The notes beneath the pieces are model-generated. The model saw only the letters and a program-made list of their open reading frames with translations, made no database searches and was not told the origin of the DNA. A stretch of DNA of 53,071 nt from Pirellulales bacterium (GTDB lineage Bacteria; Planctomycetota; Planctomycetia; Pirellulales; Thermoguttaceae): positions 1 to 53,071 of the forward strand of contig JAFGDS010000034.1 of the NCBI GenBank assembly GCA_016931995.1, given 5' to 3'. A program made the translations under genes and the position numbers. The stretch's first letter is position 1. Every line of letters starts with the position of its first letter. Below are positions 3,401-31,024 of this stretch, piece after piece.

Positions 3401-3781
3401 CAGGCGATCCCTCGCTATTGGCTGCGGGACGGGATCGAGATCGGCATCCGCCGCGCGGCCACCCATTTCGGCCCGATGTCGGTGGTGTATCAACCTTCGC
3501 CGCGTCGCGAGGGCAAGATCGTGGTCGAACTCGATCCCCCAAGGCGCAACCCGCCCAAGGCGATCTATCTCCGCCTGCGCCACCCGGAGGAGAAGCCCAT
3601 CAAGAGCGTCACGGTCAACGGCAAGCCCTACGACAAGACCGACCTCGACAAGAAGTGGATTGTCTTGCCACTACGCGATCTCGCGGATTTGCCGCTAACG
3701 CCAGGGCGATACATCGAGAAGGAGTGGATCATCCTGCCGGGCGATCTCGGGGCGCATCAGACGATCGTGGTCCGCTACTGA
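446..3781 (+). CDS. Secreted six-hairpin glycosidase-like protein
   Basis: Product of 1111 aa. Residues 1-32 form a signal peptide: a basic start, a hydrophobic core FAFFFFIL and an ARAG-type cleavage region. Residues about 33-560 look beta-rich. Residues about 590-990 have the helical, aromatic-rich pattern of an (alpha/alpha)6 six-hairpin glycosidase toroid, for example NKNQGYVLWGLAEHW near 688 and then WIIRERKATMHL. The last 100 residues look like a beta-sandwich. This suggests periplasmic or extracellular polysaccharide breakdown, but I recognise no specific GH family and cannot name catalytic residues. The ATG at 446 is preceded by CGGAGA and gives the complete signal peptide. It stands alone, between tRNA-Gly and shc. 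Confidence 0.8.
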   Translation: MNANSLLLRAAKFAFFFFILSIPDSLDPARAGEELAATGQAFDAAPFADARLSEDEREYSLRWDEPRRIRQVIVAFAPDAAPATADGVRLQYWHRHWNGLADPPASEVNPCEEGWRKIDDWTNGGWKDADARVTQDGPRWTFAFAPTGEKEFPRLGAPGVPYRKTLMIRLRAKAALPAIQSVHALTDGATEPMTVRILWDVPAVASLAFEGEEEARLDAYNGQILGVEPIADCPVKIEGRRATIPAGMRGGVTLRLAVAAGAADDSPDRTVVTVRSARRPFSFTPNELLLGRRILIDDLGVLVTKGDDAVTVAGWRETLREIGHKTVYDRVAEADEQTLGRARDEMPLKQPLYFVHGLPGNRNVFRQDPHGDLAVSSTNSRHRWNPSPRDSERQLWRGGYLDLGFGFPAGRCGGRELAEGYLPRLRTWWQDGPVFYEQTTILGKLQGDLDSIVLDDPTVLFMRVRAVNTSATELGGATLALGSRDGGGVERLEIDGQRVFVRGPNDQRLLRYLLHSPEGSQTVSEGRGLRWSAPLKPGESRELFFAIPSITLTDDKEIADLAECSFDAESQALVEYWRKVTSRSAEIVTPEPWLNDFHKAHARHLEVNCLRDLDKKSSRRYATVGSFHYGVFPNESVMMITDLDRRGMHKAAEDCLQSMLDFQGTVALPGNFQDREGVFYGADGIQMGGYNKNQGYVLWGLAEHWRYTRDRAWMERVAPNILAACEWIIRERKATMHLAPDGTKPLEYGFLPAGGLEDVQDFWYWQATNTAAVWGFDAAADALADFGHPEAKRLRAEANAYHDDVMRGLTEARVRTPVARLRDGTYVPKYPSHLHLRTRAGGWIRETLEGSMFLPVYGLIPADAPETAWILKDYEDNLYISDRYGYSIPTFERFWFSRGGFSMQANLLDGPLPYLYRDDVKHFLRAFFNGFASAFYPETKMLNEHSKPELGYPAGDHFKTSDEAQVAYWLRLMFVREAGDMLYLGQAIPRYWLRDGIEIGIRRAATHFGPMSVVYQPSPRREGKIVVELDPPRRNPPKAIYLRLRHPEEKPIKSVTVNGKPYDKTDLDKKWIVLPLRDLADLPLTPGRYIEKEWIILPGDLGAHQTIVVRY

Positions 3782-4106
3782 TTTTCCCAGCGCGCCGCGC
3801 TAACTCCACGGTGGCATCGCCGCCGCGGACGTACCCCGCGTCTCTCGGTTGGCCGTTTGCGATGCGCCGGCTGGGCCGGCCGCGGCCACCAGAGCAGCCA
3901 GCCTGGCCCCGGCACGGACAAATCCCCCGCATCAAGGGGAATAACACCACCAGACGGACTCTCCTTTCCCATAATGCCATGAACGCTCGCCCTGCCCGGG
4001 ATGGTCTTGTCGGGCCAGCGGGGATTGCGTAAGCTAGTCGCGTTTGTGGCTTGCCCAAAGGGCCGGCGGTCAGGGATGAATACGACGCCAGGACAGGCAC
4101 GCGAAG
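3782..4106. other. Intergenic region before shc
   Basis: 325 bases between the glycosidase-like gene and shc. I see no RNA gene, no member of the repeat families found elsewhere, no T-run terminator and no convincing promoter. Confidence 0.5.
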
Positions 4107-6275: not shown

Positions 6276-6293
6276 AACGCCGCGGCGGAAAGG

Positions 6294-6330
6294 TGCGAAG
6301 CCGCAAGCGTCGGTCGAGGTCGGAAGTCGG
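6294..6330. repeat. GCGAARCCGCAAGCG repeat upstream of hpnH
   Basis: GCGAAGCCGCAAGCG followed by TCGGTCGAGGTCGGA closely matches 33585-33615 upstream of the ABC transporter genes. Inverse-orientation relatives lie at 9976-9997 and 31057-31079, and a partial one at 8695-8716. Confidence 0.7.
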
Positions 6331-6342
6331 AAAGAATCGCAT

Positions 6343-6370
6343 CCCCAATCCCCAATCCCCAATCCCCAAT
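6343..6370. repeat. Tandem heptamer (CCCCAAT)x4
   Basis: Four perfect consecutive copies of CCCCAAT run from 6343 to 6370 and end 24 bases before the proposed hpnH GTG start. A heptamer array can change length by slippage. Confidence 0.85.
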
Positions 6371-6394
6371 CCCTCCTTCCCCCCGAGCCCCGCC

Positions 6395-7414
6395 GTGCGT
6401 TTCCCGCTCTCCCTGACACGCTCCATGACCGGCTACCTGATCCGCCAGCGGCTGGCCGGGCGGAAACGCTTCCCGCTGGTCTTGATGCTCGAACCGTTGC
6501 ACGCCTGCAACCTGCGTTGCACGGGCTGCGGCCGGGTTCGCGAGTATGCCGATTGCGTCCATCAGCGGCTCTCCGTGGACGAGTGTCTCGACGCGCTGGA
6601 CGAGTGCGGCGCGCCGATCGTGAGCATCTGCGGCGGCGAGCCGCTGATCTACCCCGAGATCGGCCCCCTGGTGGACGCGATTCTCGCGCAGCGCAAGCAC
6701 ATCTACCTTTGCACGAACGGGCTGGCCCTGCGCGAGCAGCTCGTTCGCTTCCGCCCCAGCAGCCGGTTTGCCATCAACGTCCATCTGGACGGCATGGAAG
6801 CCACGCACGACGCGATCGTCCAGCGCGAGGGCGTGTTCGCCGAGGCGGTCCAGGGCATCCAAGCGGCCAAGCGGGCCGGATTCCTCGTCTACACGAATAC
6901 GACCGTCTACCGGCGGACCGACCTGGACGAGGTGGCCGTTCTGTTTGAGTACCTCTCGCAGCTCGGCGTGGACGGATTCATGCTCTCGCCCGCGTTCGGC
7001 TACGAGGTCTTCGGCTCGCGCGCCGCCAGCGACGCGGAGCGGATCTTCCTGACGCGGGACGAGATCCACGCGAAGTTTCGCCTGGCCCGGCGGAGGCTCG
7101 CGCGGTACCGCCTGTGCAGCTCGCCGGTCTACATGGACCTGTTGTGCGGCGAGCGGGAATTGCCCTGCGCGGCCTGGGCCAACCCGACGTACAACGTCCG
7201 CGGCTGGAAGGGCCCCTGCTACCTGGTGACCGACGCCCATTACGCCACGTACCGCGAGCTTCTCGATGCGACCGACTGGGACGCGATCGGCCCGGGGCGC
7301 GACGCCCGCTGCGAGCATTGTCTGGTCCACTGCGGCTTCGAGCCCGCCGCCGTGCTGGCCGCCCCCCGCCGCGGCGCGGACCTGCTGCGCATGGCCTTCT
7401 GGCAGCTCGGCTAG
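6395..7414 (+). CDS. hpnH: Radical SAM adenosyl-hopene synthase HpnH
   Basis: Product of 339 aa from GTG 6395. HpnH joins the adenosyl moiety of SAM to hopene, the first step toward side-chain-extended hopanoids. The radical SAM cluster motif is C38-N-L-R-C42-T-G-C45 in LEPLHACNLRCTGCGR, typical of planctomycete HpnH, followed by the SAM-binding ICGGEPLIYPEI and INVHLDGMEATHD. Start: an ATG at 6425 is possible, but the GTG at 6395 adds RFPLSLTRS, which aligns in length and character with the N-terminus of known HpnH proteins (a short segment ending about 20 residues before GRKRFPL). It follows shc on the same strand and probably belongs to the same transcript. Confidence 0.93.
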   Translation: MRFPLSLTRSMTGYLIRQRLAGRKRFPLVLMLEPLHACNLRCTGCGRVREYADCVHQRLSVDECLDALDECGAPIVSICGGEPLIYPEIGPLVDAILAQRKHIYLCTNGLALREQLVRFRPSSRFAINVHLDGMEATHDAIVQREGVFAEAVQGIQAAKRAGFLVYTNTTVYRRTDLDEVAVLFEYLSQLGVDGFMLSPAFGYEVFGSRAASDAERIFLTRDEIHAKFRLARRRLARYRLCSSPVYMDLLCGERELPCAAWANPTYNVRGWKGPCYLVTDAHYATYRELLDATDWDAIGPGRDARCEHCLVHCGFEPAAVLAAPRRGADLLRMAFWQLG

Positions 7415-7511
7415 AGCGCCGGCCGCGCCCGTCCGGCAAGACCCATCTCGCCGGCCCCGGGTCTTCCCAATCGCGGCGGCGCCCCGTAAGATGAGGGTCC
7501 GCGCGACTCCT

Positions 7512-7537
7512 CCCCTCTCCCGCAAGCGGGAGAGGGG
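7512..7537. repeat. CCCTCTCCCGC hairpin repeat
   Basis: Perfect inverted repeat CCCCTCTCCCGC/GCGGGAGAGGGG around AA, followed by GGTGAGGGCGGGTGAGA. Degenerate relatives lie at 21022-21036, 21113-21135, 45683-45704, 48009-48051 and 50075-50111. It lies 98 bases after the hpnH stop and has no T-run. Confidence 0.8.
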
Positions 7538-7577
7538 TCGCACGGTGAGGGCGGGTGAGATACAGTCCGTTGCCGTG

Positions 7578-7635
7578 GGAGGCGACTCCCGCCGATTCCC
7601 CTGTATCGGCCCGGTCGGCGACGGGAGTCGCCTCC
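7578..7635. repeat. Imperfect inverted repeat upstream of dapA
   Basis: GGAGGCGACTCCCGCCGA (7578-7595) pairs with TCGGCGACGGGAGTCGCCTCC (7615-7635), leaving a three-base bulge, and is followed by TACAATAAG. It lies about 70 bases before the dapA start and could form a leader hairpin or be a mobile palindromic repeat. Confidence 0.6.
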
Positions 7636-7707
7636 TACAATAAGACAACCCAGGCACGCCGCGCGGTTCCATTGCTTTCCTTCCCCAACAACCCGGTTTT
7701 TTGACCC

Positions 7708-8595
7708 ATGAACACACGCGGTGAACAGTTCGCCGGTTTGTCGGTGGCCATCGTCACGCCGTTTGTCGGCGGGCGGATCGACTTCGAGACCCTCCAACGC
7801 CAGGTCGAGTTCCAAATCGACGCTGGCACGACGGCCGTCTGCGCGGTCGGCACGACGGGCGAATCGCCCACCCTCTCGCACGCCGAGCACCGCGCGGTGA
7901 TCTCCGCCGTGGTCGAGGCGGCCGCCGGGCGGATCAAGGTCATGGCCGGCACCGGCTCGAACAGCACGGAGGAAGCCCTCGAACTGACCCAATTCGCCGC
8001 CCAGGCCGGCGCCGACGCCGCGCTGGTGGTCGCTCCGTACTACAACAAGCCAACCCAGGAAGGCTTCTTCCTGCATTTCAAGACTCTGGCCGAGTGCGTC
8101 GATATCCCGATCTGCGTGTACAACATCCCCGGCCGAACCGCCAAAAACATCGAGCCGGAGACGATCATCCGCATGGCCGAGTGTCCCCGCATCGCGATGG
8201 TGAAAGAAGCCACCGGCTCGATGGACCAGGCCTCGCGGATCCTCGCGGCCACCGACCTCACCGTCCTGAGCGGCGATGACAGCCTCACCTTGCCCCTGAT
8301 GTCCGTCGGCGCCCGCGGCGTCGTTTCCGTGGTGGGCAACATCGTGCCCGCCGACGTGATCGCGCTATGTCGGGCTTTCGACGCGGGCAACCTCGCCGAA
8401 GCCCTGCGACTGCACCGGAAGCTGTTTCCGCTGTGCCGCGACATGCTCGGGCTGTCCACCAACCCCATCCCGATCAAGGCCGCCATGAAGCTCCTGGGGC
8501 GCGACACCGGCGAGCTCCGCATGCCCATGACGCCCCTGGAACCCAACCAGGAAGCCCGGCTCCGCAAAACCCTGGCCGACTACGGGCTGCTGTAA
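7708..8595 (+). CDS. dapA: 4-hydroxy-tetrahydrodipicolinate synthase
   Basis: Product of 295 aa, the normal family length. It condenses pyruvate with aspartate semialdehyde in the lysine/diaminopimelate pathway in the cytoplasm. Signature pieces are GTTGESPTL (about 49-57), [12 protein letters not shown]138 in [12 protein letters not shown] and the Schiff-base lysine K166 in VKEATGS. The Y138-K166 spacing of 28 equals that of E. coli DapA (Y133/K161). The ATG at 7708 gives the expected N-terminus [10 protein letters not shown]. It is apparently monocistronic, between repeat hairpins upstream and a GTCATTCG-rich stretch downstream. Confidence 0.97.
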
Positions 8596-8638
8596 GCGAA
8601 GGACGGGGGACGAGGGGCGAAGGACTCGGGAGTCTTTT

Positions 8639-8693
8639 GGTCATTCGGGCTTGGTCATTGGTCATTCGTTCGTCGTTCGTCATTCGTCATTCC
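8639..8693. repeat. GTCATTCG-type low-complexity stretch
   Basis: At least six near-copies of GTCATTSG/GTCATTCGT stand in a row between dapA and the glycosyltransferase. The stretch encodes an artefactual peptide rich in MTNDE on the other strand and is not a gene. Confidence 0.7.
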
Positions 8694-8737
8694 GTCGCTC
8701 GCGGCTTCGCAACGACGTACACCACCGCCCACCGCGC

Positions 8738-9853
8738 ATGCCCCGCCTCCTGGTCCTCTGCGAACACCCGACGCTTCTGGGCGGCGAGCGTTCGTTTTTG
8801 TCGTTGGCGGACAATGTCGCCCGGGCGGGATTCGACGTGGCCCTGATGGCCCCGCCCGAGGGCCCGTTGGCCCGGGCCGCCGTCGAGGCGGGGCTCGACC
8901 TCGTGCCGTTTCGCTCGCTCGACTACCAGGGCCGCCGGCTGCCGCAGCCGCGACGGCGGGAGTTCCTGGCCGCCGAGCTGGCCCACCTGCGGCCCGACCT
9001 GCTGCACGCCAACAGCCTGGCCATGGCACGGCTGGCGGGGCCCGTGGCCGCCGCCTTGGACGTGCCGAGCCTGGGCCACCTCCGCGACATCGTGCGGCTC
9101 ACCCGCCGGGCCATCGACGACCTGAACCGCAACACCCGGCTGGTGGCCGTGTCCGAAGCCACGCGCCGCTTCCACGTCGCCGCCGGACTGTCGACCGAGA
9201 AAACCCACGTCCTGTACAACGGCGTCGACCTGGCCCAATTCGCCCCGCGCGCCGCCACGGGCTATCTACACCGGCAACTCGGGATCCCCGAGACCGCGCC
9301 GTTGGTGGGCACGATCGGCCAGATCGGACCCCGTAAGGGCCAGGATGTGCTGGCCCAGGCCGCTGCTCTGCTGGGGCGTGCGCATCCCGAGGCCCACTTC
9401 GTCGTCGTGGGCCAGCGGTGGTCGGACAAGGCCGAGTCGCGACGCTTCGAGCGCGACCTGATCGACGCGGCCGGGCAGTTGGACGGACGGATGCACTTGC
9501 TCGGCGCGCGGGACGATGTGCCGCGTCTCTTGAACGAACTGACGATCCTCGCCCACCCGGCCCGGCAAGAGCCCTTGGGCCGCGTGCTCTTGGAGGCCGC
9601 CGCCTCGGGCGTGGCCGTGGTGGCGACCGATGCGGGCGGCACGTCGGAGATCTTTCCGCCCGACGCGAAAGCGGCGCGGTTGGTTCCGCCGGACGAACCC
9701 GAAGCACTCGCCGAGGCGATCGCCGACCTCCTGGCCGATCCCTCTGCCCGTCGGGAGATGGCCGCCCGCGCCCGCCGGCGCGCCGAGTCGGCCTTCGACC
9801 GCCGCCAGGCCGCCGCCGGGCTGGTCGAGCACTACCGGGCAACGCTGGGATGA
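8738..9853 (+). CDS. GT4-type glycosyltransferase
   Basis: Product of 371 aa. The N-terminal half (about 1-170) is a Rossmann-like acceptor domain beginning MPRLLVLCEHPTLLGGERSF, with LLHANSLAMARL and LGHLRDIVRLT. The C-terminal half is a GT-B nucleotide-sugar domain: VLYNGVDLAQF, GTIGQIGPRKGQDVL, HFVVVGQRW and the donor-binding stretch HPARQEPLGRVLLEAAASGVAVVATDAGGT-SEIF, in which E and the following Gly-rich turn fit the GT4 EX7E region. Probable role: adding a sugar to a cell-surface glycan or glycolipid; donor and acceptor are unknown. The ATG at 8738 is chosen because the 29 in-frame residues before it are encoded by the GTCATTCG repeat. Confidence 0.9.
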   Translation: MPRLLVLCEHPTLLGGERSFLSLADNVARAGFDVALMAPPEGPLARAAVEAGLDLVPFRSLDYQGRRLPQPRRREFLAAELAHLRPDLLHANSLAMARLAGPVAAALDVPSLGHLRDIVRLTRRAIDDLNRNTRLVAVSEATRRFHVAAGLSTEKTHVLYNGVDLAQFAPRAATGYLHRQLGIPETAPLVGTIGQIGPRKGQDVLAQAAALLGRAHPEAHFVVVGQRWSDKAESRRFERDLIDAAGQLDGRMHLLGARDDVPRLLNELTILAHPARQEPLGRVLLEAAASGVAVVATDAGGTSEIFPPDAKAARLVPPDEPEALAEAIADLLADPSARREMAARARRRAESAFDRRQAAAGLVEHYRATLG

Positions 9854-9865
9854 CGCCCGGCTTGA

Positions 9866-9940
9866 GTGCCACTGGCTTTGCCAGCGCATGAGTGCCACTG
9901 GCTCTGCCAGTGCTTGAGTGCCACTGGCTCTGCCAGTGCG
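9866..9940. repeat. Three tandem GTGCCACTGGC...CCAGTG hairpins
   Basis: Copies begin near 9866, 9892 and 9917. Each is GTGCCACTGGC-TYTG-CCAGYGC, a hairpin of CACTGGC with GCCAGTG. This is the most abundant repeat family of the window. Confidence 0.9.
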
Positions 9941-9975
9941 TGTACGACCGTCAACGAGCCGTTGCCGGTCAGCCG

Positions 9976-9997
9976 AGAAGCCGCTTGCGGTTTCGCA
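9976..9997. repeat. GCCGCTTGCGG palindromic repeat
   Basis: GAAGCCGCTTGCGGTTTCGC, the reverse-strand form of the GCGAARCCGCAAGCG repeat seen before hpnH and before the ABC transporter genes. Confidence 0.65.
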
Positions 9998-10050
9998 ACC
10001 CAGCGCGCACTCCTTGGAAACCGTGCCGGATCTCCCCCCTTGCGTCCACG

Positions 10051-10160
<110 letters not shown>

Positions 10161-10280
10161 ACCGGCATGTCGTCCGCGCATGCGAAAGGGGGAAGGCCTC
10201 CGGAGACACCCTCCCCCTTCGGATCGTTTCGCCGCGGCGCGTCCACATCGTCCGCGCGGCGGGCTTGTCGGCAAGTAAGA

Positions 10281-10442
10281 CTACTTGGTCTCGCCGGCCG
10301 GGGGCGTGCCCGGATCGGCCGGGGCAGCGGCGCCGGTGTCGCCGGTCTTCTTCTCTTCAGTCTTCTTCTTCGCATCGCCGCTGCAGCCCAGGGCGAACAT
10401 GCTGACACTCAGGAGCACGAGAAACATGCCAAGACGTTTCAT
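10281..10442 (-). CDS. Small (53 aa) lipoprotein
   Basis: A complete frame from ATG (10442) to TAG (10281). The N-terminus MKRLGMFLVLLSVSMFALGC is a lipoprotein signal with lipobox A-L-G-C20. The mature part is only 33 residues: a Lys/Glu-rich stretch and then an Ala/Pro/Gly/Thr-rich tail ending GETK. AAAGGT about 6 bases upstream is an acceptable ribosome site. The mature peptide has no recognisable domain; function unknown. It is divergent from the sigma factor gene, with 193 bases between starts, so the two may share a control region. Confidence 0.8.
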   Translation of the reverse strand: MKRLGMFLVLLSVSMFALGCSGDAKKKTEEKKTGDTGAAAPADPGTPPAGETK

Positions 10443-10481
10443 CGCAGTACCTTTCCGTAAAATAGGGACTTTGGGTCAAAT

Positions 10482-10502
10482 GTGCGGGAGACATTCCCGC
10501 AC
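10482..10502. promoter_or_regulatory. 8-bp hairpin between lipoprotein and sigma gene
   Basis: GTGCGGGA (10482-10489), loop GACAT, TCCCGCAC (10495-10502), lying in the divergent control region. Possible operator or 5'-leader hairpin of the lipoprotein transcript. Confidence 0.4.
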
Positions 10503-10536
10503 GCATTCATAGGTACCGATCCCATCCCCTGGGCAT

Positions 10537-10599
10537 TTATTCCACCACTGCTAAAATTTCGTAAAGACTGCTCGCCGAAGGGGGAATAACGTGGAATAA
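10537..10599. promoter_or_regulatory. Three GGAATAA sites upstream of the sigma gene
   Basis: GGAATAA at 10583-10589 and 10593-10599 has a 10-base period, and its reverse complement TTATTCC lies at 10537-10543. The latter and the last direct copy extend to GTGGAATAA. This arrangement suggests an operator or an autoregulatory ECF promoter; inference only. Confidence 0.4.
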
Positions 10600-21288: not shown

Positions 21289-21596
21289 CTACGGCCAGAC
21301 GCGGCCTGTCCGTGCGACCTTGACCCGCAAGAACGCGGCGAGGCCCAGCGCGAGGAGCAGGGCGATCGCGCCCGGCTCGGGCACGAGGGTCACGGCGTAC
21401 GCGCTGAAGCCGTCCACGGTGAAGTGGGCGTAGGTTCCGTCGCAGACCAGCCCCGGCGCGGCGTAGGGCAGCCAGCCCTCGCCGTCGTTGCGCCAGACCG
21501 CGAGGTCCTCGCCGTCGTGGCCCGGGCCGACTGCGATCGACAGATACGCGGGGTCGCCCGGCGCGTGGCCGCCGGCGGCGGGATCAGTCCTCCGAC
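21289..21596 (-). pseudogene. Orphan PEP-CTERM tail (5'-truncated gene)
   Basis: Directly after and slightly overlapping the end of the PhnD/PQQ gene, a different minus-strand frame encodes about 100 residues, typical of the end of planctomycete PEP-CTERM exoproteins: GPGHDGEDLAVWRNDGEGW, then FTVDGFSAYAVT and the sorting signal VPEPGAIALLLALGLAAFLR with a basic VKVAR end, stopping at 21289. No in-frame start codon with a ribosome site precedes it; the only internal GTG would give about 40 residues. It therefore looks like the 3' remnant of a gene whose body was lost, or less likely a frameshifted extension of the upstream gene. Confidence 0.65.
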
Positions 21597-23647
21597 AGGT
21601 CCACGCAGACGACCTTCGCCATGTCCCGCAGGTAGAGCCGACTGCCGACCAGGGCGGGATGGCTGAGGACCTCGGCGTCGTCGGCGAAGATCCGAAGGCG
21701 CGAGACGACCGTGAACGCGTCGGCCGCGGCGTCGATCAAGAGCAGCTCGCCCCGTTTGGTCACCACGAGCACCCGATCCGGCGAGGCGACGACACTGGAG
21801 TAGTCGCCCAGGTCCTCGTCGCCCGTCCAAATGGCCGCGAGGGTCGAGTCGGCCTTGAGGCAGTAGACCGCGTCCCAGCAGCCGAACAGGCGACCGCCGA
21901 CCAGAACGGGCGTGCTCGCGTCGGGGGCGAGGTCTTCGTTCCTCGCGACCGGCTCGGGCACGATCGCGCCGCCGGGCTCGAAGTCGAAAAGCCGGGTGCC
22001 GTTGGTTTCCGAGGCGACGATCAGCCTTCCGCCCGCGTCGATCGGGGTGGGCACGTTGAAATCGCCGGCGGCCGGGGGCACGAGCGTCCAGAGCCGTCGG
22101 CCCGTCTCGGGATCCCAGCCGCCGAGCGTCTTCTCGTCGTAGCCGACGATCTGCCGCTCGCCGCCGAACCGGCCCACGATGAACGAGGCGTACGCCGCCG
22201 GCAGTCCGGGGCAGCGCCACACTTCCGCGCCCGAGGCGCAATCGAGCGCCACGAGCGAAGCGTCCTTCGCGCCGGGATTGACGATGAGCTTGCCGTCGAC
22301 CAGAAGCGGCGAGGAACAGTATCCCCAGGTGGGCACGGCGCCGCCGAAATCGCGGACGAGATTCCTCGACCAGACGACCTCGCCGGTGGCCAGCCGCGCG
22401 CAGTGCAGATCGCCCAGGCCGCCCAGCGCGTACACCATTCCCTCGGCCACCAGCGGCGTGGCGCGGGGGACGCTCCCGTAGTCCTGGATCTCGCCCGACG
22501 TGGCGTATTCGAGCGTCCAGATCTCGATGCCGCTGGCGGCGTCGAGGCAGCGGAAGACGTCGCCGCAATCCATTGCGTCGCGGTCGGCGATGATGACGAA
22601 ATCCTCGGTGGCGACGATGCCTGCCAGACCCTTGCCGGTGAGCTCCTTGGACCAGAGGATTCTTGCCTCCTTGGGCAAGCGGGCCGGCAGGTGGGCCACG
22701 ACGCCGTCGCGACCGGGCCCGCGCCAACCGGGCCAGGACGTTTGCGGCGCGACGGCCGGCTCCTCGGCCGGCGGGGGCGAAGCGGTTTCGGGCTTCTTCT
22801 CGGAAGGCTTCGCCGTCGCGTCGATCGGAACGAATCCCAACTGGGTTTCCAACGCGGTCAGGAGATCGGGATGCTCGACGACGGCCGCCAGGGCGGCGCG
22901 GATCTCCGCCCCCAGCGCCTCGTCCACCGCGTCGGTGAAGAACACCGTCACGAACGGCGCCGGCGCCGTCTCGCCCACGACGCGGATCGAGCCCTTCTCG
23001 ATCGTACCGCAGCCCTCCAAGAGCGCCGCGGCGTAGCTGGAGATCACCGCGGCGATAGGCTTGTCGGGGTTGTCCAGCATTTCGAGCACGGAGTCACTGC
23101 AGCCGGGGCGGGTTTCAGGCTTGGCGGGTGTTTTGATGCCGGCCTTGCGCAGGGCCTCGACCGCCGCGGCGAATTTTTCGTCGCTTGCCGGAGGGCCGAA
23201 CAGAACCGTGTAGCCCGTCAGATCGCCGAGCGTCCGGGCGGGGTCGTCCGTTCGCACCACAACCAGCCCCACGAGCGTTGTCTTGCCGTCCTTGCCGGTG
23301 AGCATCATCGCCGGCCGCAGGGGGAAGTCGAGCGTGTTGGCGTCGAAACGCACGACGGATTGCTTGCCGATGACCACGTGAACGGGCTTGCCGGAATCGC
23401 CGCGAAGGATCTTCGACAGGTCTTCCGAAAAGACGACCTCGACCGGCCGCCGCAACTCGCCTTCCAGGAACGCGGCCAGCTTCTCGTAGCGCCGCTGGGC
23501 GTGCCCCTCCACGCAAGGGCACGATAGCGGCAACGCCAAGGGATCCATCACGCCCACGACCAGCGGCGGCTCGGCCAGACAGAGGTTGACGCAGGCGCAT
23601 ACGGCGACGATGGCGGCGACGCCGAAAAACCGAACGGCTCGATACAT
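21584..23647 (-). CDS. PhnD-like binding domain fused to PQQ-type propeller
   Basis: Product of 687 aa. Residues 1-26 form a signal peptide. Residues about 28-270 resemble a phosphonate/phosphite-type ABC substrate-binding protein (PhnD): LVVGVMDPLALPLSCPCVEGHAQ, YEKLAAFLE, RPVEVVFSEDL, LTGYTVLFGPPASDEKF and VFFTDAVDEALGAEI. A Pro/Glu linker (about 271-305) leads to a BamB/PQQ-like propeller starting WPGWRGPGRDG, with repeated DAASGIEIW, LATGEVVW, DCASGAEVW and DPETGRRLW blades. C43 and C45 form a C-P-C motif. The ATG at 23647 is chosen because GAGGTC precedes it and it begins the signal peptide. It starts 34 bases after the stop of the upstream propeller gene, so they are probably one operon. 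Confidence 0.85.
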   Translation of the reverse strand: MYRAVRFFGVAAIVAVCACVNLCLAEPPLVVGVMDPLALPLSCPCVEGHAQRRYEKLAAFLEGELRRPVEVVFSEDLSKILRGDSGKPVHVVIGKQSVVRFDANTLDFPLRPAMMLTGKDGKTTLVGLVVVRTDDPARTLGDLTGYTVLFGPPASDEKFAAAVEALRKAGIKTPAKPETRPGCSDSVLEMLDNPDKPIAAVISSYAAALLEGCGTIEKGSIRVVGETAPAPFVTVFFTDAVDEALGAEIRAALAAVVEHPDLLTALETQLGFVPIDATAKPSEKKPETASPPPAEEPAVAPQTSWPGWRGPGRDGVVAHLPARLPKEARILWSKELTGKGLAGIVATEDFVIIADRDAMDCGDVFRCLDAASGIEIWTLEYATSGEIQDYGSVPRATPLVAEGMVYALGGLGDLHCARLATGEVVWSRNLVRDFGGAVPTWGYCSSPLLVDGKLIVNPGAKDASLVALDCASGAEVWRCPGLPAAYASFIVGRFGGERQIVGYDEKTLGGWDPETGRRLWTLVPPAAGDFNVPTPIDAGGRLIVASETNGTRLFDFEPGGAIVPEPVARNEDLAPDASTPVLVGGRLFGCWDAVYCLKADSTLAAIWTGDEDLGDYSSVVASPDRVLVVTKRGELLLIDAAADAFTVVSRLRIFADDAEVLSHPALVGSRLYLRDMAKVVCVDLSED

Positions 23648-23681
23648 GGAGCGACCTCGATGGGGCAACTACTGACGGTGG

Positions 23682-25352
23682 CTACTTGGCCTCTTCGGCG
23701 GGCGGTTCGGCCGGCGCGGCGGGAGCGGCCGGCTTCTTCTTGGCGAAAACGTGGATCGTTCGTTCGCCGCTGTTGAGAACGAAGAACTGGTCGGCGTCGG
23801 CCTTGTATTCCGTGGTCACGCGGACGCAGCCCGATTGCCACGGCGCCACGACCGCCATGCCGAGGAACTTGCCGTCGGGGGTGAAGCGCTTCACGCAGGT
23901 GGGCGGGCCGGATTCAGCCGCGAACAGCTCTCCGTTGGGCGCGAACCGCAGGTTCTTCGGCTCGCAGCAGCCGCCGAAACCGTCCGCGGCGACGCGATCC
24001 CTCCTGCCAAACGACGAGAGCTGCTTGCCGTCCCGGTCGAAATGCTCGACCTTGTGCCGGCCGTTGTGGCCGACCCAAAGCTCGCCGTCGCGGGCTTGCA
24101 CGTCCATCTGGCCGCAGCAGCCGGCCAGCTTCGTCGCGACCTTCTTGGGCTCCTTGAAGTCCCGGTCGGTCCGCCATGCCTCGAAACCGTAACCTTGGGA
24201 GGACCGGCAGGAAACGAACACGTCCCGATCCGTCACGGCCATGCCGGCGAGCGTAAGCTGGCGCTCGCGCTCCTTCCGCAGGCGCTGGGCGCGCATCTCG
24301 GGCGTGGTCTGAAGGTCCGTCAACTCCTGTTGGAGCGTCCGGTATTTCTCCAGGGGCTTCTCAATTTTGTTCCGATAGGCTTCCATGGCGGCTGAATCGT
24401 CCGGCTTGAGGTTTTTCCTGGCTTCCTGGGCGATCTCCTGGTACTCCTTCATGGCCTTGGCGACTTCCTCGCGCAGCTTGGCGATCTTTTCCTGCTTCGC
24501 CTTTTCGGCGGCCTGGGCCTCCTCGCCCCGCGGCTCGGGCGTCTCCTCGGGCGGCGGCGGAAGCGGCGGCAACTCGGCGACGTTGGGCGCGTCGGCCACG
24601 AGCAGGACCTTGCCCTCCGCGTCGAGTTTGGCCACCTTGCCCGCCCCGCCCACGTACACGGTCCCGTCGCTCGCGCGACAAATGGCCTGGGGCTCGAACT
24701 CCATCTTCCACTCGCCGACCTTCTTGCCGTCGGAAGAAAGCACGAGGATCACCCCGGGGGCGGTCGCCTTTTCCGCGTCGTCGGGCTTCCCGCCGCCGCG
24801 TTGCGGCGCGTTGGCCCCGCAGCACACCAGCAGGTTGCCATCCCCGTCGAGACAGAAACTGTGGACCGCGCGATTGCCGACGTGCTCGCTCACCTTGATC
24901 ACGCTTGCCTGCTCGTGCGACGGCTGCCAGAGGGGATCCTTACTCAGGCGGTCCCGCAACTCGCGTTGCTCTTTCTCGTAGGCGGATTGCGCCTGCTCGA
25001 CCGCCGCCTTCCTGCGAGCCTCTTCCTCGGCCTTCTTGGTGTCCGATGCCCAGAGCGCCGACCAGAGGGTCTTGAAGAGCGAAGGCGACTTGACGACGGC
25101 TGGCCGGAGCCGCAATGTGGCGATCCTCTTGCTTGTGGACTTCAAGATGGGTTTCCTCGCGGCGTCTGCCGCCGGCGCGCTCGCGGCCGGCGCGGCGGGC
25201 GAGACGGCCGGCGCTTGGGCCGGCGCCGATTTCGGCTCCTCCCGCTCCTCGTCGGCGACCTGGCCCGAGCAGAAGCTGCCCAACGATCCGATGAGCACGA
25301 GCACCGTCATCACCGACAGGAACGTGCGCGCGCGATTCCGCATGGCGATCAT
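23682..25352 (-). CDS. Secreted NHL-like propeller with three Cys-Cys pairs
   Basis: Product of 556 aa. Residues 1-30 form a signal-like segment (FLSVMTVLVLIGSLGSFCSG); C28 is not in a clean lipobox. Residues 40-65 are Ala/Pro-rich, about 105-140 a charged helix, and about 275-365 a long Glu/Lys/Ala coiled coil. Propeller-like strands flank the coil: AVHSFCLDGDGNLLVCCG, DVQARDGELWVGHNGRHKVEHFDRDG, NLRFAPNGELFAAESG and VKRFTPDGKF. Three vicinal cysteine pairs, C177-C178, C412-C413 and C462-C463, sit at equivalent blade positions, suggesting a metal or redox site; inference only. The start at 25352 has AAGGAG ten bases upstream. It is the first gene of a probable pair with the PhnD/PQQ fusion. 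Confidence 0.8.
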   Translation of the reverse strand: MIAMRNRARTFLSVMTVLVLIGSLGSFCSGQVADEEREEPKSAPAQAPAVSPAAPAASAPAADAARKPILKSTSKRIATLRLRPAVVKSPSLFKTLWSALWASDTKKAEEEARRKAAVEQAQSAYEKEQRELRDRLSKDPLWQPSHEQASVIKVSEHVGNRAVHSFCLDGDGNLLVCCGANAPQRGGGKPDDAEKATAPGVILVLSSDGKKVGEWKMEFEPQAICRASDGTVYVGGAGKVAKLDAEGKVLLVADAPNVAELPPLPPPPEETPEPRGEEAQAAEKAKQEKIAKLREEVAKAMKEYQEIAQEARKNLKPDDSAAMEAYRNKIEKPLEKYRTLQQELTDLQTTPEMRAQRLRKERERQLTLAGMAVTDRDVFVSCRSSQGYGFEAWRTDRDFKEPKKVATKLAGCCGQMDVQARDGELWVGHNGRHKVEHFDRDGKQLSSFGRRDRVAADGFGGCCEPKNLRFAPNGELFAAESGPPTCVKRFTPDGKFLGMAVVAPWQSGCVRVTTEYKADADQFFVLNSGERTIHVFAKKKPAAPAAPAEPPAEEAK

Positions 25353-25533
25353 CGTTCGCGATCTCCTTGGAAACGGGGACAAAGAAACGGGCGCCGCGCC
25401 CCAGGCGCGTCCGATCCCAAGCCCGGTGCCCCGAAGGGAACTGCCCCGCCCCAAGCCTCCTCTCGACCGTCCGGGCAGCCCCCATTTTACTACCGAATCG
25501 CCCGAGCGACCAGTCTTGGACAACCCAACAAAC

Positions 25534-25905
25534 TTATGGGGGGGCAGACTCGCCGAGACGGCCATTGTCGAGCTCCATGCGGCGAGGGACCGCCCTGCCC
25601 GGGGTTGGGTCGGGGATCCGCCACGTCGCTGGGTCCGGTTTGACTGTTCCGGCTCCGTGAGGAGTTTCACCTTGCCCTAGCAGCCAAAGGCTGCCCTTCG
25701 ACGGCGTGATCTTCTTCAGCTCGCGGCGGATCTCCCGGCGGATCCGCCAACGAAGGGCCAGCCGCCCGAGGAAGCCGGCCTCGGCCAGTGCGTCCGCAAA
25801 GCGCGCGGCCACGGCCTGGCGCAGCGCGCGGCGAAGCGCCCGATACTCGTCGCTTTGCGCGAGCCGTGACTGGCCGTCTTCAACAAGGTTCGCTGTGCGG
25901 ATCAT
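25534..25905 (-). CDS. Small Arg-rich conserved-looking protein
   Basis: Product of 123 aa. MIRTANLVEDGQSRLAQSDEYRALR resembles small hypothetical proteins common in Planctomycetota. A strongly amphipathic basic region, RWRIRREIRRELKK (about 62-75), follows. The last 45 residues, ending ESAPP, are low-complexity and may be a degenerate extension. No signal peptide is visible, so it is probably cytoplasmic. The ATG at 25905 has GAGG 8 bases upstream. It begins 30 bases after the stop of the YdjY-like lipoprotein gene and is probably co-transcribed with it. Function unknown. Confidence 0.65.
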   Translation of the reverse strand: MIRTANLVEDGQSRLAQSDEYRALRRALRQAVAARFADALAEAGFLGRLALRWRIRREIRRELKKITPSKGSLWLLGQGETPHGAGTVKPDPATWRIPDPTPGRAVPRRMELDNGRLGESAPP

Positions 25906-25935
25906 TGCGCGGCCTCGGTCAGGCACGCCAGCCGA

Positions 25936-27069
25936 TCAAGACTCGTCCGGATCGGCCCAGGGCTTCGCGTCCTTGGGTGGCTCGGACGCGGCGGGGGGCT
26001 CAACCGACTTTGACACGGCGGGCGGCTCGAACGAGGCGGGGGGCTCAACCGACTTTAACGCGGCATCGAGCTTCGGCGTCAACACCACGGTCACCGGCGT
26101 GCCCAGGGGCGGGATCCGCTCCGTGAACGCCTCGAACAGAAGCGCGTTGTCCTTGTCGGTGCTGGGCACGGGCAGGTCGAGCATCGCGCTGGGGAAGTTC
26201 GACACGCAGATGAAATCGCCGCTTTCGGCCTGGTAGTGTTCCGTGCCGGTCTCCTCGTCCTTCCAGAAACCGCTGCCGGCGAAGACCCAGGGGTAGGTCA
26301 TCGCCTGCTTCGAGCGGATGTCGCGGACCCAATCTTGCGCCTTGGCCGACTGGACCTTGCCCTCGGCGTCCTTCCAATGGACGATCACGTCGATTTCCGT
26401 GCCCGAGGCGGGGACGTATTCGGGATGGAACGCAACGGGCTGGCCGACCTTTGCCCCGACGGCGAGCAAGGCCGCGTGGACCGTCCGCGCTCGGGTCGGG
26501 ATCGACACGACCGCTTCGTGCTCCTTCGTTCCCCGCAGACAGGCGAACATCTCCAGCGGGGCGTTCGTCTGGCAGACCTCGCCGAGCATCACGACGCGCT
26601 TGCCCTCCGGGTCGAGCCAGATCGGACGCAGCGGGTCGAGCTTGCGCAACCGCTCCGCGTGGTCCACCAGCGGCGGGCCGGCCTCGAGCGGCGGTTTCGC
26701 TTGGTCGCTTGGGGGCGACTTGGGCTCGATTTCCGAAGGCGCCGTGGACGTGTCCTTCGCGGCTTCTTCTTGGGTGGTTTTCTCCGTGGGCTCCGGGGGC
26801 GTCTCTTTCGCGGCGTCCGGCGTGGACTCTTTGTGGGTCGCGTCGGGATCGGACGAGGGGGCCGCCTCGTCGGGAGTCGGCTCACTCGGTTCGGCCGGCT
26901 GATCTGGCCGGTCCGGTTGCCCGGCGGCCGAGGCGGCGTTGTCGTGGGCCGGCTCGCGCGGTTTCTCGCGGGGACCATCCGACCGTGGCGAGCAACCCAG
27001 AAGGAGGATCAACGTCAAGACCAGGCCCATCGGGCCCCAAAACGTATTCCTTCGTGCAACCGGTTCCAT
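25936..27069 (-). CDS. YdjY-domain-like lipoprotein
   Basis: Product of 377 aa. MEPVARRNTFWGPMGLVLTLILLLGC is a lipoprotein signal with lipobox L-L-G-C26. Residues 27-140 are an extremely Pro/Glu/Asp/Lys-rich disordered spacer. The folded part (about 145-340), with IWLDPEGKRVVMLGEVCQTN, LEMFACLRGTKEHEAVVS, AHAALLAVGAKVGQPV and HWKDAEGKVQSAKAQDWV, matches what is called a YdjY domain in planctomycete proteins. The tail repeats VEPPAxxEPP. Probably membrane-anchored and periplasmic; the biochemical role is unknown. It is the first gene of the minus-strand group ending at 21584, with the control region in the repeat-rich gap upstream. Confidence 0.8.
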   Translation of the reverse strand: MEPVARRNTFWGPMGLVLTLILLLGCSPRSDGPREKPREPAHDNAASAAGQPDRPDQPAEPSEPTPDEAAPSSDPDATHKESTPDAAKETPPEPTEKTTQEEAAKDTSTAPSEIEPKSPPSDQAKPPLEAGPPLVDHAERLRKLDPLRPIWLDPEGKRVVMLGEVCQTNAPLEMFACLRGTKEHEAVVSIPTRARTVHAALLAVGAKVGQPVAFHPEYVPASGTEIDVIVHWKDAEGKVQSAKAQDWVRDIRSKQAMTYPWVFAGSGFWKDEETGTEHYQAESGDFICVSNFPSAMLDLPVPSTDKDNALLFEAFTERIPPLGTPVTVVLTPKLDAALKSVEPPASFEPPAVSKSVEPPAASEPPKDAKPWADPDES

Positions 27070-27277: not shown

Positions 27278-27348
27278 CGAAATCAATCGGTCCTTCGGCT
27301 TTGCCGCACCACGCTGACACACCTCGGGCACCACACCCAAGCGCAATT

Positions 27349-29175
27349 ATGGCCTCTTCCACTCTTCCCGCAATGGCGCCAAGCAACCCCCCCGTGGATT
27401 TCGCCCAGGGAACCGCGCGGGCCGTATGGCACAAGTCGGCGCCCGCGACGTTGCGGCGAGCTGTCCAATCGGGGGATACCGAGCGGATTTGGGCGGCTTG
27501 GCGCGACCACCTGGCGTCCCGGACGAGCCCGATTCCGCCCGGGCGGCTCTTTGGTGCTGCACGGCGGCCGCTTTTGTGGGCATTGCCGGCGGGTGTCAAA
27601 GGGGACAGTCCCATTTTCGTTGACACGAAAATCGGGACAGTCCCCGCGGCGGGGCGAAACTGGGATGACGAAGCGAGTCGTTGGCTGGCCGACGCGGCGA
27701 CCGCCGGCGGCAGTCTTGGCGCCGCGTTTGAGACGATCGCTTGGGTCCACGCCCTGCCGGGCCTGGCCGGGTCGATGACCGCCGACGCGTGGTGGGGTCT
27801 CCTGGCCCAGCTCGTGGCCGTGGCGGTCGAGGCCGAGCGGCTCGTGCCGGAGGAGGGGCCGTTGGTTCACGCCCTGCTGGCCGGCGAGTTGCCGTTAACG
27901 TTGGCCTATCTCTTCCCCGAGATCGTCCCCTGTCGGCGTCTGGCCAAGCCGGGTTGCCACGCCGCGTCGGCCAGTCTGATCGACCTTACGGACGGCGCGG
28001 GACTGGTCCACGTGTCGCAGTGGGAAGTGGCCCGGCCGCTTCTGGCCTGCTGGACCCGCTGCCGGGCCTTGGGGATTATCTGGAAGAAAGGCCGGCTGGC
28101 CGACGACGCGATCGTGCAGTACGATTGGGCGGTGCATCAGGCCCTGCAATGGACGCGGCCCGATGGGCGCCAAACCCTCGCCGACGGCCCAGCCGGCCAG
28201 TGGTGCCCGGGACTGTTCGAGGCGGCGTTGCGGCTCGACGCGGACGAGGACGATCGGGCGGTGGCCGCGCTGGTGTTGCCGGGTGGGAAGAAATCGGACG
28301 CCCAGCGCGCCGCCAATCAATCGCTGCCCGAGCCGGCGGTGCATTCCGAATGGGCGGCCGCGGCCGTGCTGCGGCCCGGCTGGAACCGGGCGCATCCAGT
28401 CCTGTCGATCCACTACCCCGGCACGACGGTCCGCTGCGAGCTCTCCGCCAAGCGGGACGTGCTCTTGTCTGGCCCATGGACGTGCGAAGTCCGCCAGGCG
28501 GGCCGCTTGCTCGCGCCGGCTTCCGAATGGGAGGAAGTCTGCTGGGTGTCGGACGAGGACGCGGACTACCTCGAGCTGGAGATCGAGCTGGACGAGGGGC
28601 TGCTCGTGCAGCGCCAGATGGTCATGGCTCGAAAGGATCGGTTTCTGCTCCTGGTCGATAGCGTATTGGGCGAGGAGCCGGCCGGGTTGGAGTACACGGG
28701 TTCTCTCGCGCTTGCGCCGGACGTGGCGTTTGACCCGGCGCGGGAGACCCGCGAGGGCGCGTTGGTCGCGGACAATTCGCGGCGGGCCGCGATGGTGTTG
28801 CCGCTGGCGCTGGGCGAGTGGCGGGCGGACGGCGGCAATGGGTCGCTCGAATCCACGCCGCAGGGTCTTGCATTGCGCCAAGTCACGGACGGCCGGTCGC
28901 TGTGCGCGGCGCTCTTCCTCGACCTCGATCCCAAGCGGTTCGAACGCAAGCTCACCTGGCGCAAGCTCACCGTGGCCGAGTCGCTGGTGGTGCAGCCGGA
29001 CGACGCGGCGGTGGGCTACCGCGTGCGAATCGGCAAGGAGCAGTGGCTCTACTACCGCTCGTTGGCCTTGCCGGCCAACCGAACGGTGCTAGGCCACAAC
29101 CTGGCCACGGAGACGCTCGTCGCCCGGTTCCACGCGAAGACCGGCCAGGTCGAATCCGTGATTGAAGTGGCGTGA
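27349..29175 (+). CDS. Heparinase II/III-like protein
   Basis: Product of 608 aa with no signal peptide. The N-terminal part (about 100-290) is helical and rich in Trp/Leu/Ala. The C-terminal part (about 330-600) has a beta-sandwich pattern: VLSIHYPGTTVRCELSAKRD, YLELEIELDEGLLVQRQMVM and RVRIGKEQWLYYRSL. This toroid-plus-sandwich order fits heparinase II/III-like polysaccharide lyases of Planctomycetota, but I cannot identify catalytic residues, so the call is structural. The ATG at 27349 follows AT-rich GCGCAATT; 27373 is an alternative. Residues 85-99 (GDSPIFVDTKIGTVP) are encoded exactly by a 45-bp palindromic repeat (27601-27645). Confidence 0.65.
   Translation: MASSTLPAMAPSNPPVDFAQGTARAVWHKSAPATLRRAVQSGDTERIWAAWRDHLASRTSPIPPGRLFGAARRPLLWALPAGVKGDSPIFVDTKIGTVPAAGRNWDDEASRWLADAATAGGSLGAAFETIAWVHALPGLAGSMTADAWWGLLAQLVAVAVEAERLVPEEGPLVHALLAGELPLTLAYLFPEIVPCRRLAKPGCHAASASLIDLTDGAGLVHVSQWEVARPLLACWTRCRALGIIWKKGRLADDAIVQYDWAVHQALQWTRPDGRQTLADGPAGQWCPGLFEAALRLDADEDDRAVAALVLPGGKKSDAQRAANQSLPEPAVHSEWAAAAVLRPGWNRAHPVLSIHYPGTTVRCELSAKRDVLLSGPWTCEVRQAGRLLAPASEWEEVCWVSDEDADYLELEIELDEGLLVQRQMVMARKDRFLLLVDSVLGEEPAGLEYTGSLALAPDVAFDPARETREGALVADNSRRAAMVLPLALGEWRADGGNGSLESTPQGLALRQVTDGRSLCAALFLDLDPKRFERKLTWRKLTVAESLVVQPDDAAVGYRVRIGKEQWLYYRSLALPANRTVLGHNLATETLVARFHAKTGQVESVIEVA
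27601..27645. repeat. 45-bp GGGACAGTCCC element inside a gene
   Basis: GGGGACAGTCCCATTTTCG...CGAAAATCGGGACAGTCCCC, exactly 15 codons in frame in the heparinase-like gene. Matches 11469-11513, 48355-48435 (with a longer centre) and 52909-52953. Confidence 0.9.
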
Positions 29176-29584: not shown

Positions 29585-29722
29585 GCGCGCTGCCCTCGGG
29601 GTAACCTGGCAAGGAGGCGGCGGTTCTGGGGCGGGCTCGCAAACGGCGTGGGTTGACAGCCGGTCCCCCGGGGGGGAAAATGGCGGTTTGTCCCGTTCTT
29701 GCCGCGACTCCAGAGGATTACG

Positions 29723-31024
29723 ATGCCCGAGATCCAAGCCTTTCGCGCCCTCCGCTACGACCTGGGCCACGTCGGCTCGCTAAGCGACGTGGTGGCCCCG
29801 CCCTACGACGTCATTTCGCCCGAACTGCAAGAAGAACTCTACAAGAAACACCCCTGCAACTTCGTGCGGCTGATCCTCAATCGCAAGGAGCCGGGCGACG
29901 ACGAGCGGAACAACACCTATCTCCGGGCACGCGATTTCCTGAAGAACTGGCGGAACGAAGGCGTTCTGTACGCCGATCCCGAGCCGGCCATCTACGTCTA
30001 CCATCAGGAGTTCACCTTCGCCGGCCGGACGTACAACCGCCGCGGGTTCATGTCGCGGATCAAGCTCTCGCGTTTCGGCGAGGGCAAGGTCTTCCCGCAC
30101 GAAGAGACCCATTCGGCGGCCAAGGTGGACCGGCTCATGCTCACCACCACGTGCAAGGCCAACCTGAGCCAGACGTTCGGCCTGTATCCCGATCCCGAGT
30201 GCGAAGCGCAAAACGTGCTCGAGGCGGCCACGGCCAGCCTGACGCCCGTGGTGGCGAACGACCATCTCGGCGTGATCCACCGGTTGTGGACCGTGACGGA
30301 CTCGGCCGCGATTGCCCAGCTCGTCGCCGTGATGGGCCCGAAGCCGATCTTCATCGCCGACGGGCACCACCGCTACGAGACGTCGTGCAACTACCGCGAC
30401 CAGATCCACGACATGGGCCTGCTAACGCCCGATCACCCGGCCAACTACGGCCTGATGATGTGCGTGGCGATGGACGACCCCGGCCTCGTGGTGCTGCCCA
30501 CGCACCGGCTTTTCACCGGCGTGCCGGCCATGACGGCCGACGAGCTGGCGGCCAAGCTGGGCGATTGCTTCACCACGAAGGTGGTCGGCAAGGGTCCCGA
30601 GTTGGCCGATGCCGTGTGGGAAGACATCGAAACGGCCGACAACCAGGGCACGCTGGGCCTGTGCGCCGCCAAGGACATGACCTGGACGCTGGCGACGATC
30701 ACCGACGCGGGCCGGGCCCGCATGGCCCAAGTGGCCGCCGATCACAACGAGGATTGGCGCGGCCTCGGCGTGAGCATCCTGCACCGCCTGCTGGTCGACG
30801 ACTTGTTGGGCGTGAAGGACTTGCCCAAGCCGAACTACGTCCACCTGGTCAGCGAGGTGGTCGAGGGCTTGCGCGCGGGCGAGTATCCGTTGGCCGCGCT
30901 GGTGATGCCGGCCACGGTGGACCACATCCGCGCGATCAGCCTCGGCGGCGAGCGGATGCCGGCCAAGAGCACCTACTTCTATCCGAAACTTCTCAGCGGC
31001 CTGGTCGTCCATCCGCTCGAATGA
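29723..31024 (+). CDS. DUF1015 family protein
   Basis: Product of 433 aa, the usual length. The N-terminus MPEIQAFRALRYD and the block SLSDVVAPPYDVISPELQEELY are characteristic, as are KVFPHEETHSAAKVDRL and IFIADGHHRYETSCNYRDQ (ADGHHRYET is the family signature). The biochemical function of DUF1015 is not established; it is a cytoplasmic protein. AGAGGA lies about 7 bases before the ATG at 29723, and the 8 in-frame residues before it lack support. It is followed, after repeats, by hpnC on the same strand; the 152-base gap makes an operon uncertain. Confidence 0.92.
   Translation: MPEIQAFRALRYDLGHVGSLSDVVAPPYDVISPELQEELYKKHPCNFVRLILNRKEPGDDERNNTYLRARDFLKNWRNEGVLYADPEPAIYVYHQEFTFAGRTYNRRGFMSRIKLSRFGEGKVFPHEETHSAAKVDRLMLTTTCKANLSQTFGLYPDPECEAQNVLEAATASLTPVVANDHLGVIHRLWTVTDSAAIAQLVAVMGPKPIFIADGHHRYETSCNYRDQIHDMGLLTPDHPANYGLMMCVAMDDPGLVVLPTHRLFTGVPAMTADELAAKLGDCFTTKVVGKGPELADAVWEDIETADNQGTLGLCAAKDMTWTLATITDAGRARMAQVAADHNEDWRGLGVSILHRLLVDDLLGVKDLPKPNYVHLVSEVVEGLRAGEYPLAALVMPATVDHIRAISLGGERMPAKSTYFYPKLLSGLVVHPLE

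Follow-up and report, generated by a model that had tools for sequence, protein, structure and literature searches.

What does a phosphonate-type (PhnD-like) binding protein do when it is fused to a PQQ-type propeller and has no ABC permease beside it? The question is raised by a 53,071-nucleotide stretch of DNA from a Pirellulales bacterium (contig JAFGDS010000034.1 of GenBank assembly GCA_016931995.1; hereafter, the window), which is one contig from a draft planctomycete genome of 5.4 Mb that we coded G000. The original prediction was that four neighboring minus-strand genes, for a YdjY-like lipoprotein, a small Arg-rich protein, a secreted propeller with paired cysteines, and a PhnD/PQQ fusion, form an extracytoplasmic system for sensing or for redox or metal handling. 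All four open reading frames (ORFs) lie where it placed them. Our comparisons identify a real and conserved module of Planctomycetota, but it is an extracytoplasmic module of two polypeptides, the fusion (P0001) and the cysteine-pair propeller (P0002), and not the proposed four-gene system. As for how it works, we put at roughly 55% the probability that recoding makes both a free PhnD protein and the PhnD-PQQ fusion and that the two-propeller module captures thiophilic metals or metalloids. Of the new findings, the strongest is the apparent programmed recoding that would underlie the fusion.

The two genes of the module travel together. Among 297 sampled genomes of the window's class (with the propeller family hand-counted at a cutoff of E ≤ 1e-20), the PhnD family is present in 66 and the propeller family in 64. 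Both are found in 64 genomes and the propeller is never found alone (Fisher P = 2e-63, without phylogenetic correction); the two genomes with PhnD only are G149, where the gene is near a contig end, and G246, where it is a fragment. In 60 of the 64 genomes, the PhnD and propeller matches share a contig with a gap of at most 887 bases. (In the window, the P0001 frame follows P0002 on the minus strand, with 13 bases between them.) The matches lie on separate contigs in G146, G177, G224, and G251. In three of these (G146, G224, and G251), at least one gene sits inside a contig that lacks the other, so the linkage has been lost; in G177, both genes are at contig ends. The proposed check on the two propeller genes, that they should recur as neighbors in other genomes, thus came out positive. 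In a sample of 246 genomes from the phylum, the module occurs in three outside the class: the propeller and the fusion are together in G434 (twice) and G370, and G405 has the fusion alone, on a short contig. A Verrucomicrobia assembly (locus L034) also has the module. A scan of named genomes with a single protein gave three loci only, and viral contigs scanned with the PhnD and propeller profiles gave no match.

In most relatives, PhnD and PQQ are in separate reading frames. We compiled 69 junctions, of which 45 are split, 23 are fused (G251 is counted twice), and one (G252) lacks PQQ in the fetched stretch. They represent 62 class genomes, all but four of the 66 (44 split, 17 fused, and G252), along with JAEUIN, DBTJ, G370, G405, two from G434, and a second G251 record. 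(Of the four, G195 was judged from its open frame only, and G235, G246, and G273 are truncated or fragmentary.) In 43 of the 45 split modules, a run of eight (12 modules) or nine (31 modules) A lies near the PhnD stop, and PQQ continues in the −1 frame. The run is followed by a single base (G in 33 cases and C in 3) and then the stop in 36 of these 43, so that AAA AAA AAG or AAA AAA AAC directly precedes the stop codon; in four more, AAA AAA AAG lies one codon earlier. Hence 40 of 43 junctions combine an in-phase slippery heptamer at the stop of the 0 frame with a continuation in the −1 frame. Also, a run of at least eight A, as expected for transcriptional realignment, is at the transition in 44 of 45 split modules. 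Such heptamers (A_AAA_AAG and A_AAA_AAC) and runs of 8 to 10 A appear as recoding motifs in two papers (PMC4066793, PMC3711429).

The run does not reflect lysine codon usage. AAA makes up 34% of the lysine codons in the split-module genes, and AAG is preferred in 35 of 43 genomes, so the choice of AAA at the junction implies that the A-run is a signal at the nucleotide level. Across the 385 kb of the 45 split loci there are 54 runs of eight or more A or T, and 44 of them are at the junctions. Two solo PhnD paralogs that have no PQQ partner lack the run. Together, the run and the −1 phase are the apparent signature of programmed −1 frameshifting or of transcriptional slippage.

One alternative is that PhnD is secreted alone and that the PQQ propeller is an independent gene, translated by reinitiation from a non-standard start. 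The two frames do overlap or abut, as in translational coupling, and at 7 of 45 junctions the PQQ frame contains some GTG or TTG, in one case overlapping the stop. However, in the stretch that opens 30 bases ahead of the PhnD stop and ends at the domain, there is no ATG in any of the 45 junctions, and in 38 of 45 (36 of the 43) there is no ATG, GTG, or TTG. For 11 junctions that we read further upstream, the first 70 codons of the PQQ frame contain no ATG. The PQQ domain mostly starts no more than about 25 codons from the PhnD stop, too close for a signal peptide to fit in between, whereas the fused versions follow PhnD's own signal peptide. Given also that the run is conserved at the nucleotide level, we consider independent genes to be quite unlikely.

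Another concern is that homopolymers are error-prone in sequencing and that many of these genomes are drafts. But 43 of 45 split modules shift the same way, among them those in the single-contig assemblies G051, G062, G069, G108, G136, and G231, and substitutions preserve the phase between the runs of eight and of nine. Sequencing error is therefore a very improbable explanation.

In the window, by contrast to most relatives, the two domains are joined in one frame with no run. The parts of the module there are:

21584–23647, minus strand: P0001, the PhnD-like/PQQ-propeller fusion (ORF and profile matches; all 64 genomes with the propeller also have its PhnD family)
23647, minus strand: ATG start of P0001, with GAGGT ahead of it; a TTG at 23668 is a possible alternative (frame 21584–23668)
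22814–23572, minus strand: PhnD-like binding domain with four invariant cysteines, C50, C52, C190, and C220 (alignment and AlphaFold model)
23513–23521, minus strand: CPC motif (C50 and C52) in the loop after the domain's first strand (alignment and model)
22754–22813, minus strand: in-frame linker from PhnD to PQQ; its longest A-run is 3 in the window genome and 8 to 10 in most relatives
21587–22753, minus strand: PQQ-type (BamB-like) propeller domain (profile match; alignment with 24 relatives)
23682–25352, minus strand: P0002, a secreted six-bladed NHL-type propeller with a coiled-coil insertion (model and fold matches)
24114–24119, minus strand: invariant cysteine pair C413/C414 of P0002 (412/413 if counted from the ATG), in 41 of 41 sequences
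23964–23969, minus strand: invariant cysteine pair C463/C464 of P0002 (462/463 from the ATG), in 41 of 41
23826–23828, minus strand: C510 of P0002, near-invariant (40 of 41)
24852–24854, minus strand: C168 of P0002, conserved in 38 of 41
24258–24524, minus strand: coiled-coil insertion within the P0002 propeller (model and comparison of homologs)

The split and fused states have changed repeatedly. On a PhnD tree of 67 rows (which leaves out the second G251 row and G252), the recoded and fused states need 8 changes each, and the well-supported branches force at least 2 and at least 3, respectively. For example, the fused pair G172 and G255 lies inside a clade (support 100/99) whose other rows are recoded, apart from G198. 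(The G225 row of the tree was badly extracted, with 12% of the columns, and was coded as fused despite its in-phase run of ten A.)

A further alternative is that the A-run is a phase-variable homopolymer: slippage of the DNA would toggle between PhnD alone and the fusion, across lineages or cells, without any programmed recoding. In support of this, five fusions carry a run of at least eight A in phase (nine in G251, eight in G049, and ten in G284, G033, and G225), loss of one A would bring an immediate stop in three of the five, and G198 is in the third phase. Random switching should produce a mixture of phases, unlike what we see: 43 of the 44 split modules with a run share the −1 phase. Furthermore, the difference between junctions with eight and with nine A is mostly a substitution at a third codon position, which leaves the phase intact (GCT AAA AAA AAG versus GCA AAA AAA AAG), and not an insertion or deletion. 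We therefore think that phase variation is unlikely, although less so than independent genes.

The remaining question is what the module binds. The fusion and its CPC motif, as originally described, are borne out: P0001 matches PF12974 (E = 1e-19) and PF13360, PQQ_2 (E = 2e-19), and the CPC motif is C50 and C52. The four cysteines of the PhnD domain are invariant in 36 of 36 sequences. An AlphaFold model of the domain (mean pLDDT 80, from four sequences) resembles the phosphite-binding protein PtxB (5o2j; Z = 17.8, 232 residues aligned, rmsd 5.0), with ArrX and AioX also among the top matches. Both the profile and the Foldseek and VIA matches to PtxB/PhnD are those of a type II binding-protein fold.

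PhnD-type proteins have a conserved Ser/Thr-rich stretch that binds the oxyanion. In this family it has been replaced: in the profile alignment, ASTSS(H) of PtxB aligns to ECDEK(H). C190 is two residues before the position of the His in PtxB's GAHDA, which is probably a ligand His by comparison with AioX and PhnD. Some of the PhnD cysteines are in or near ligand loops by alignment. The reading of P0001 as a standard binding protein for phosphonate or phosphite, left without its permease, would fit the PF12974 match, the partial match to TIGR01098, and PtxB as the nearest fold. But the scores are far under the cutoffs (21 of 261 bits for PhnD and 30.5 of 112 bits for TIGR01098), the oxyanion stretch is gone, and we saw no conserved transporter neighbors at 24 loci (the window, 20 regions, and three named loci). 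We set phosphonate transport aside as improbable. In fact, no flanking gene family is conserved across the 24 loci, which agrees with the original remark that there is no ABC permease; the genes were called greedily by length, with some antisense frames, so neighbors could have been missed, and distant permeases were not searched for genome-wide. Compared to PtxB and PhnD, then, the fold and the PF12974 profile are shared, but this family has four invariant cysteines in place of the Ser-rich stretch, a propeller fusion, and no conserved permease neighbor at the loci compared.

AioX, ArrX, and ArxX, which share the PhnD fold, offer a different comparison. According to one study of AioX (PMC5908839), it binds arsenite via Cys106 and stands at the head of a signal chain, which is a role other than transport, and the residues of its binding stretch are Ser161, Ser163, and His192. 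Here there are four cysteines, apparently at other positions, and no pair of kinase and regulator is conserved beside the module. A conserved X-S-R operon (kinase plus regulator) was not found at the 24 loci; a mixed two-component cluster (F2) is near 8 of them, in varying places.

The PQQ half of the fusion resembles BamB-like propellers in its PF13360 match, but it is joined to a binding domain and scores 38 bits against a cutoff of 285 for the BamB equivalog. It is also below the cutoff for PQQ-dependent dehydrogenases (TIGR03075, 22 of 480 bits). A search for pqqC in G000 was empty, as it was in the control genomes.

P0002 has only weak Pfam matches and, by eye, a hydrophobic N-terminus. 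Its model (mean pLDDT 82, from three sequences) is that of an NHL-type propeller, with six blades as read from the model's strands; the best fold match is Brat NHL (Z = 28.2, 257 residues aligned, rmsd 2.3), and PAL also matches (Z = 23.9). The six-bladed fold is thus shared with Brat, TRIM, and PAL, and the invariant cysteine pairs and the coiled coil are features of P0002. The coiled coil of about 90 residues that had been predicted is present in the model (helices 141–229 of the modeled fragment). It is an insertion, absent from the Verrucomicrobia homolog and from three propellers outside the class. Three Cys-Cys pairs had also been noted. All three are at the positions given, counting from the ATG (our numbers are higher by one), but in an alignment of 41 propellers only the two later pairs are invariant. 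The first pair is not conserved (C178 in 14 of 41 and C179 in 17 of 41). As judged by eye from the order of strands in the model, the invariant pairs and a single cysteine lie just ahead of the inner strand in each of three consecutive blades, so the propeller cysteines may be close together in space. Because the two propeller genes co-occur and the key cysteines are invariant, the idea of an extracytoplasmic cysteine-dependent system survives.

Variants of P0002 occur in a few genomes. G043 has two P0002-family propellers head to tail in one frame of 983 residues (L048, contig C124, 10089–15287), and G287 and G281 (L071 and L082) have an extra, shorter CC-propeller gene after the module on the same strand. 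G213 has a lone propeller copy (L104) with no telling neighbor by eye.

A clue to the ligand comes from PhnD paralogs. G213 carries a second copy of PhnD, which begins 36 bases downstream of a CobW-type GTPase (PF02492, with a CFCC motif). Upstream of the GTPase are a regulator of the ArsR/SmtB type (NF033788) and an ArsI/CadI protein (NF041414, 120.8 bits with a cutoff of 116) whose C-terminus is weakly ArsM-like (31 of 500 bits). In G128, the GTPase-PhnD pair recurs and then the contig ends. This context leans towards a soft metal or metalloid as the ligand. The whole row in G213 (L073, contig C333, 2495–8283) consists of a PhyH oxygenase, an MFS transporter, ArsI/CadI, ArsR (with a Cys-rich C-terminus), the CobW-like GTPase, and the solo four-cysteine PhnD, and is possibly an arsenic or metal operon.

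Alternatively, the cysteines could form structural or redox disulfides, as in a thiol oxidoreductase or a robust surface protein, with no metal site at all. Adjacent cysteines can form vicinal disulfides, all parts of the module seem to be extracytoplasmic, and in G000 and G251 a related CC-propeller has as neighbors a PQQ propeller and, judged by eye, both a Tat-type ferredoxin and a membrane protein rich in cysteine, an arrangement that points to redox. On the other hand, the location of some PhnD cysteines in or near the ligand loops and the association of the paralog with metalloregulator and CobW-type genes weigh against disulfides. We view the disulfide explanation as a serious minority possibility.

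The neighborhoods in G000 and G251 just mentioned represent a second type of operon (L066, contig C107 of G000, 1878–6126; L067, contig C8 of G251, 3815–10545). Its CC-motif propeller has the sequence GCCNP and its membrane protein has CVCPIG or CICPIG motifs, and it looks like an uncharacterized electron-transfer system.

To combine these observations, we propose that in most relatives one gene would give two products, free PhnD and the PhnD-PQQ fusion, through −1 ribosomal frameshifting, transcriptional slippage, or both at the A-run, while the window's lineage would have a hard-wired fusion. The frameshift would determine how much of the binding protein is free and how much is attached to the propeller. 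With less certainty, we propose that the Cys-rich PhnD domain serves outside the cytoplasm to capture a thiophilic metal or metalloid, such as As(III), Cu(I), or Zn(II), which the two propellers would bind or receive, with no ABC permease involved. What the sequence comparisons establish is the association of the two genes, the invariant cysteines, the absence of the usual oxyanion stretch, and, in most relatives, the run of eight or nine A at or near the PhnD stop with PQQ in the −1 frame, usually with no start codon.

Several observations weigh against recoding or against metal capture. Besides the seven junctions with a GTG or TTG, G198 has a run of ten A with the opposite shift, and G043 has an in-frame TAG between PhnD and PQQ and no run (possibly readthrough or decay). 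Structure in the downstream mRNA is not uniformly strong (mean z = −1.05, with 10 of 45 below −2, relative to mononucleotide shuffles). As for the ligand, C220 may be away from the cleft, given the order of helices in the model. The paralog's context, although seen in two genera, is probably one event. The CobW-like GTPase is in 198 of the 297 genomes, and 29 other loci that we fetched lack PhnD, so we rejected it as a general partner. ArsI/CadI is found in 30 of 66 module genomes versus 46 of 231 others (P = 9e-5, uncorrected for phylogeny or genome size), which we keep as a hint, but it has no hit in the module genomes G000, G043, and G251.

The other two genes of the proposed system are next to the module in the window:

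25534–25926, minus strand: P0003, a small Arg-rich ORF whose coding status is unsure
25936–27069, minus strand: P0004, a YdjY-domain, lipoprotein-like protein (NF040466)

P0004 is clearly a YdjY-domain protein, as had been suggested (NF040466, E = 8e-65, 217.9 bits with a cutoff of 50). P0003 has no family match in Pfam/NCBIfam-type profile searches. Neither had a match at 64 other module loci (L002 to L065) by blastp at E = 1e-3, with no YdjY profile search near the module; these loci overlap, many are only about 4 kb, and three are from G000 itself. So, the four genes do not emerge as one unit, and the suggestion that the YdjY lipoprotein is the membrane-anchored partner finds no support. 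We dropped the four-gene system because blastp found YdjY beside no other module. Further along the window are an ORF of 624 residues with no Pfam/NCBIfam match (27301–29175) and a DUF1015 protein (29699–31024, E = 1.5e-87).

Our literature searches found no description of the module or of its apparent recoding. A broad survey (PMC3711429) lists two planctomycete genomes, and "PQQ" and "phosphonate" do not occur in its main text. The recoded forms are presumably annotated in databases as two genes, so the fusion is easily missed.

To our knowledge, conserved recoding is uncommon in bacterial chromosomal genes outside of mobile elements. Known cases of such −1 frameshifting or slippage (dnaX, copA, and insertion sequences) are similar in having a heptamer or a run of 8 to 10 A at the 0-frame stop, but here the recoding would link two domains within one secreted binding protein, and it would do so in most of the examined carriers of a whole class. 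The four-cysteine PhnD subfamily and the cysteine-pair propeller would make up a predicted binding module that apparently lacks a transporter. More tentatively, a class-wide recoding switch may set the ratio of free to tethered forms of a four-cysteine protein for soft metals or metalloids, in which case this would be a new class of extracytoplasmic capture system with a recoding signal of its own, one that arose within the group and reverted to a hard-wired fusion in some lineages.

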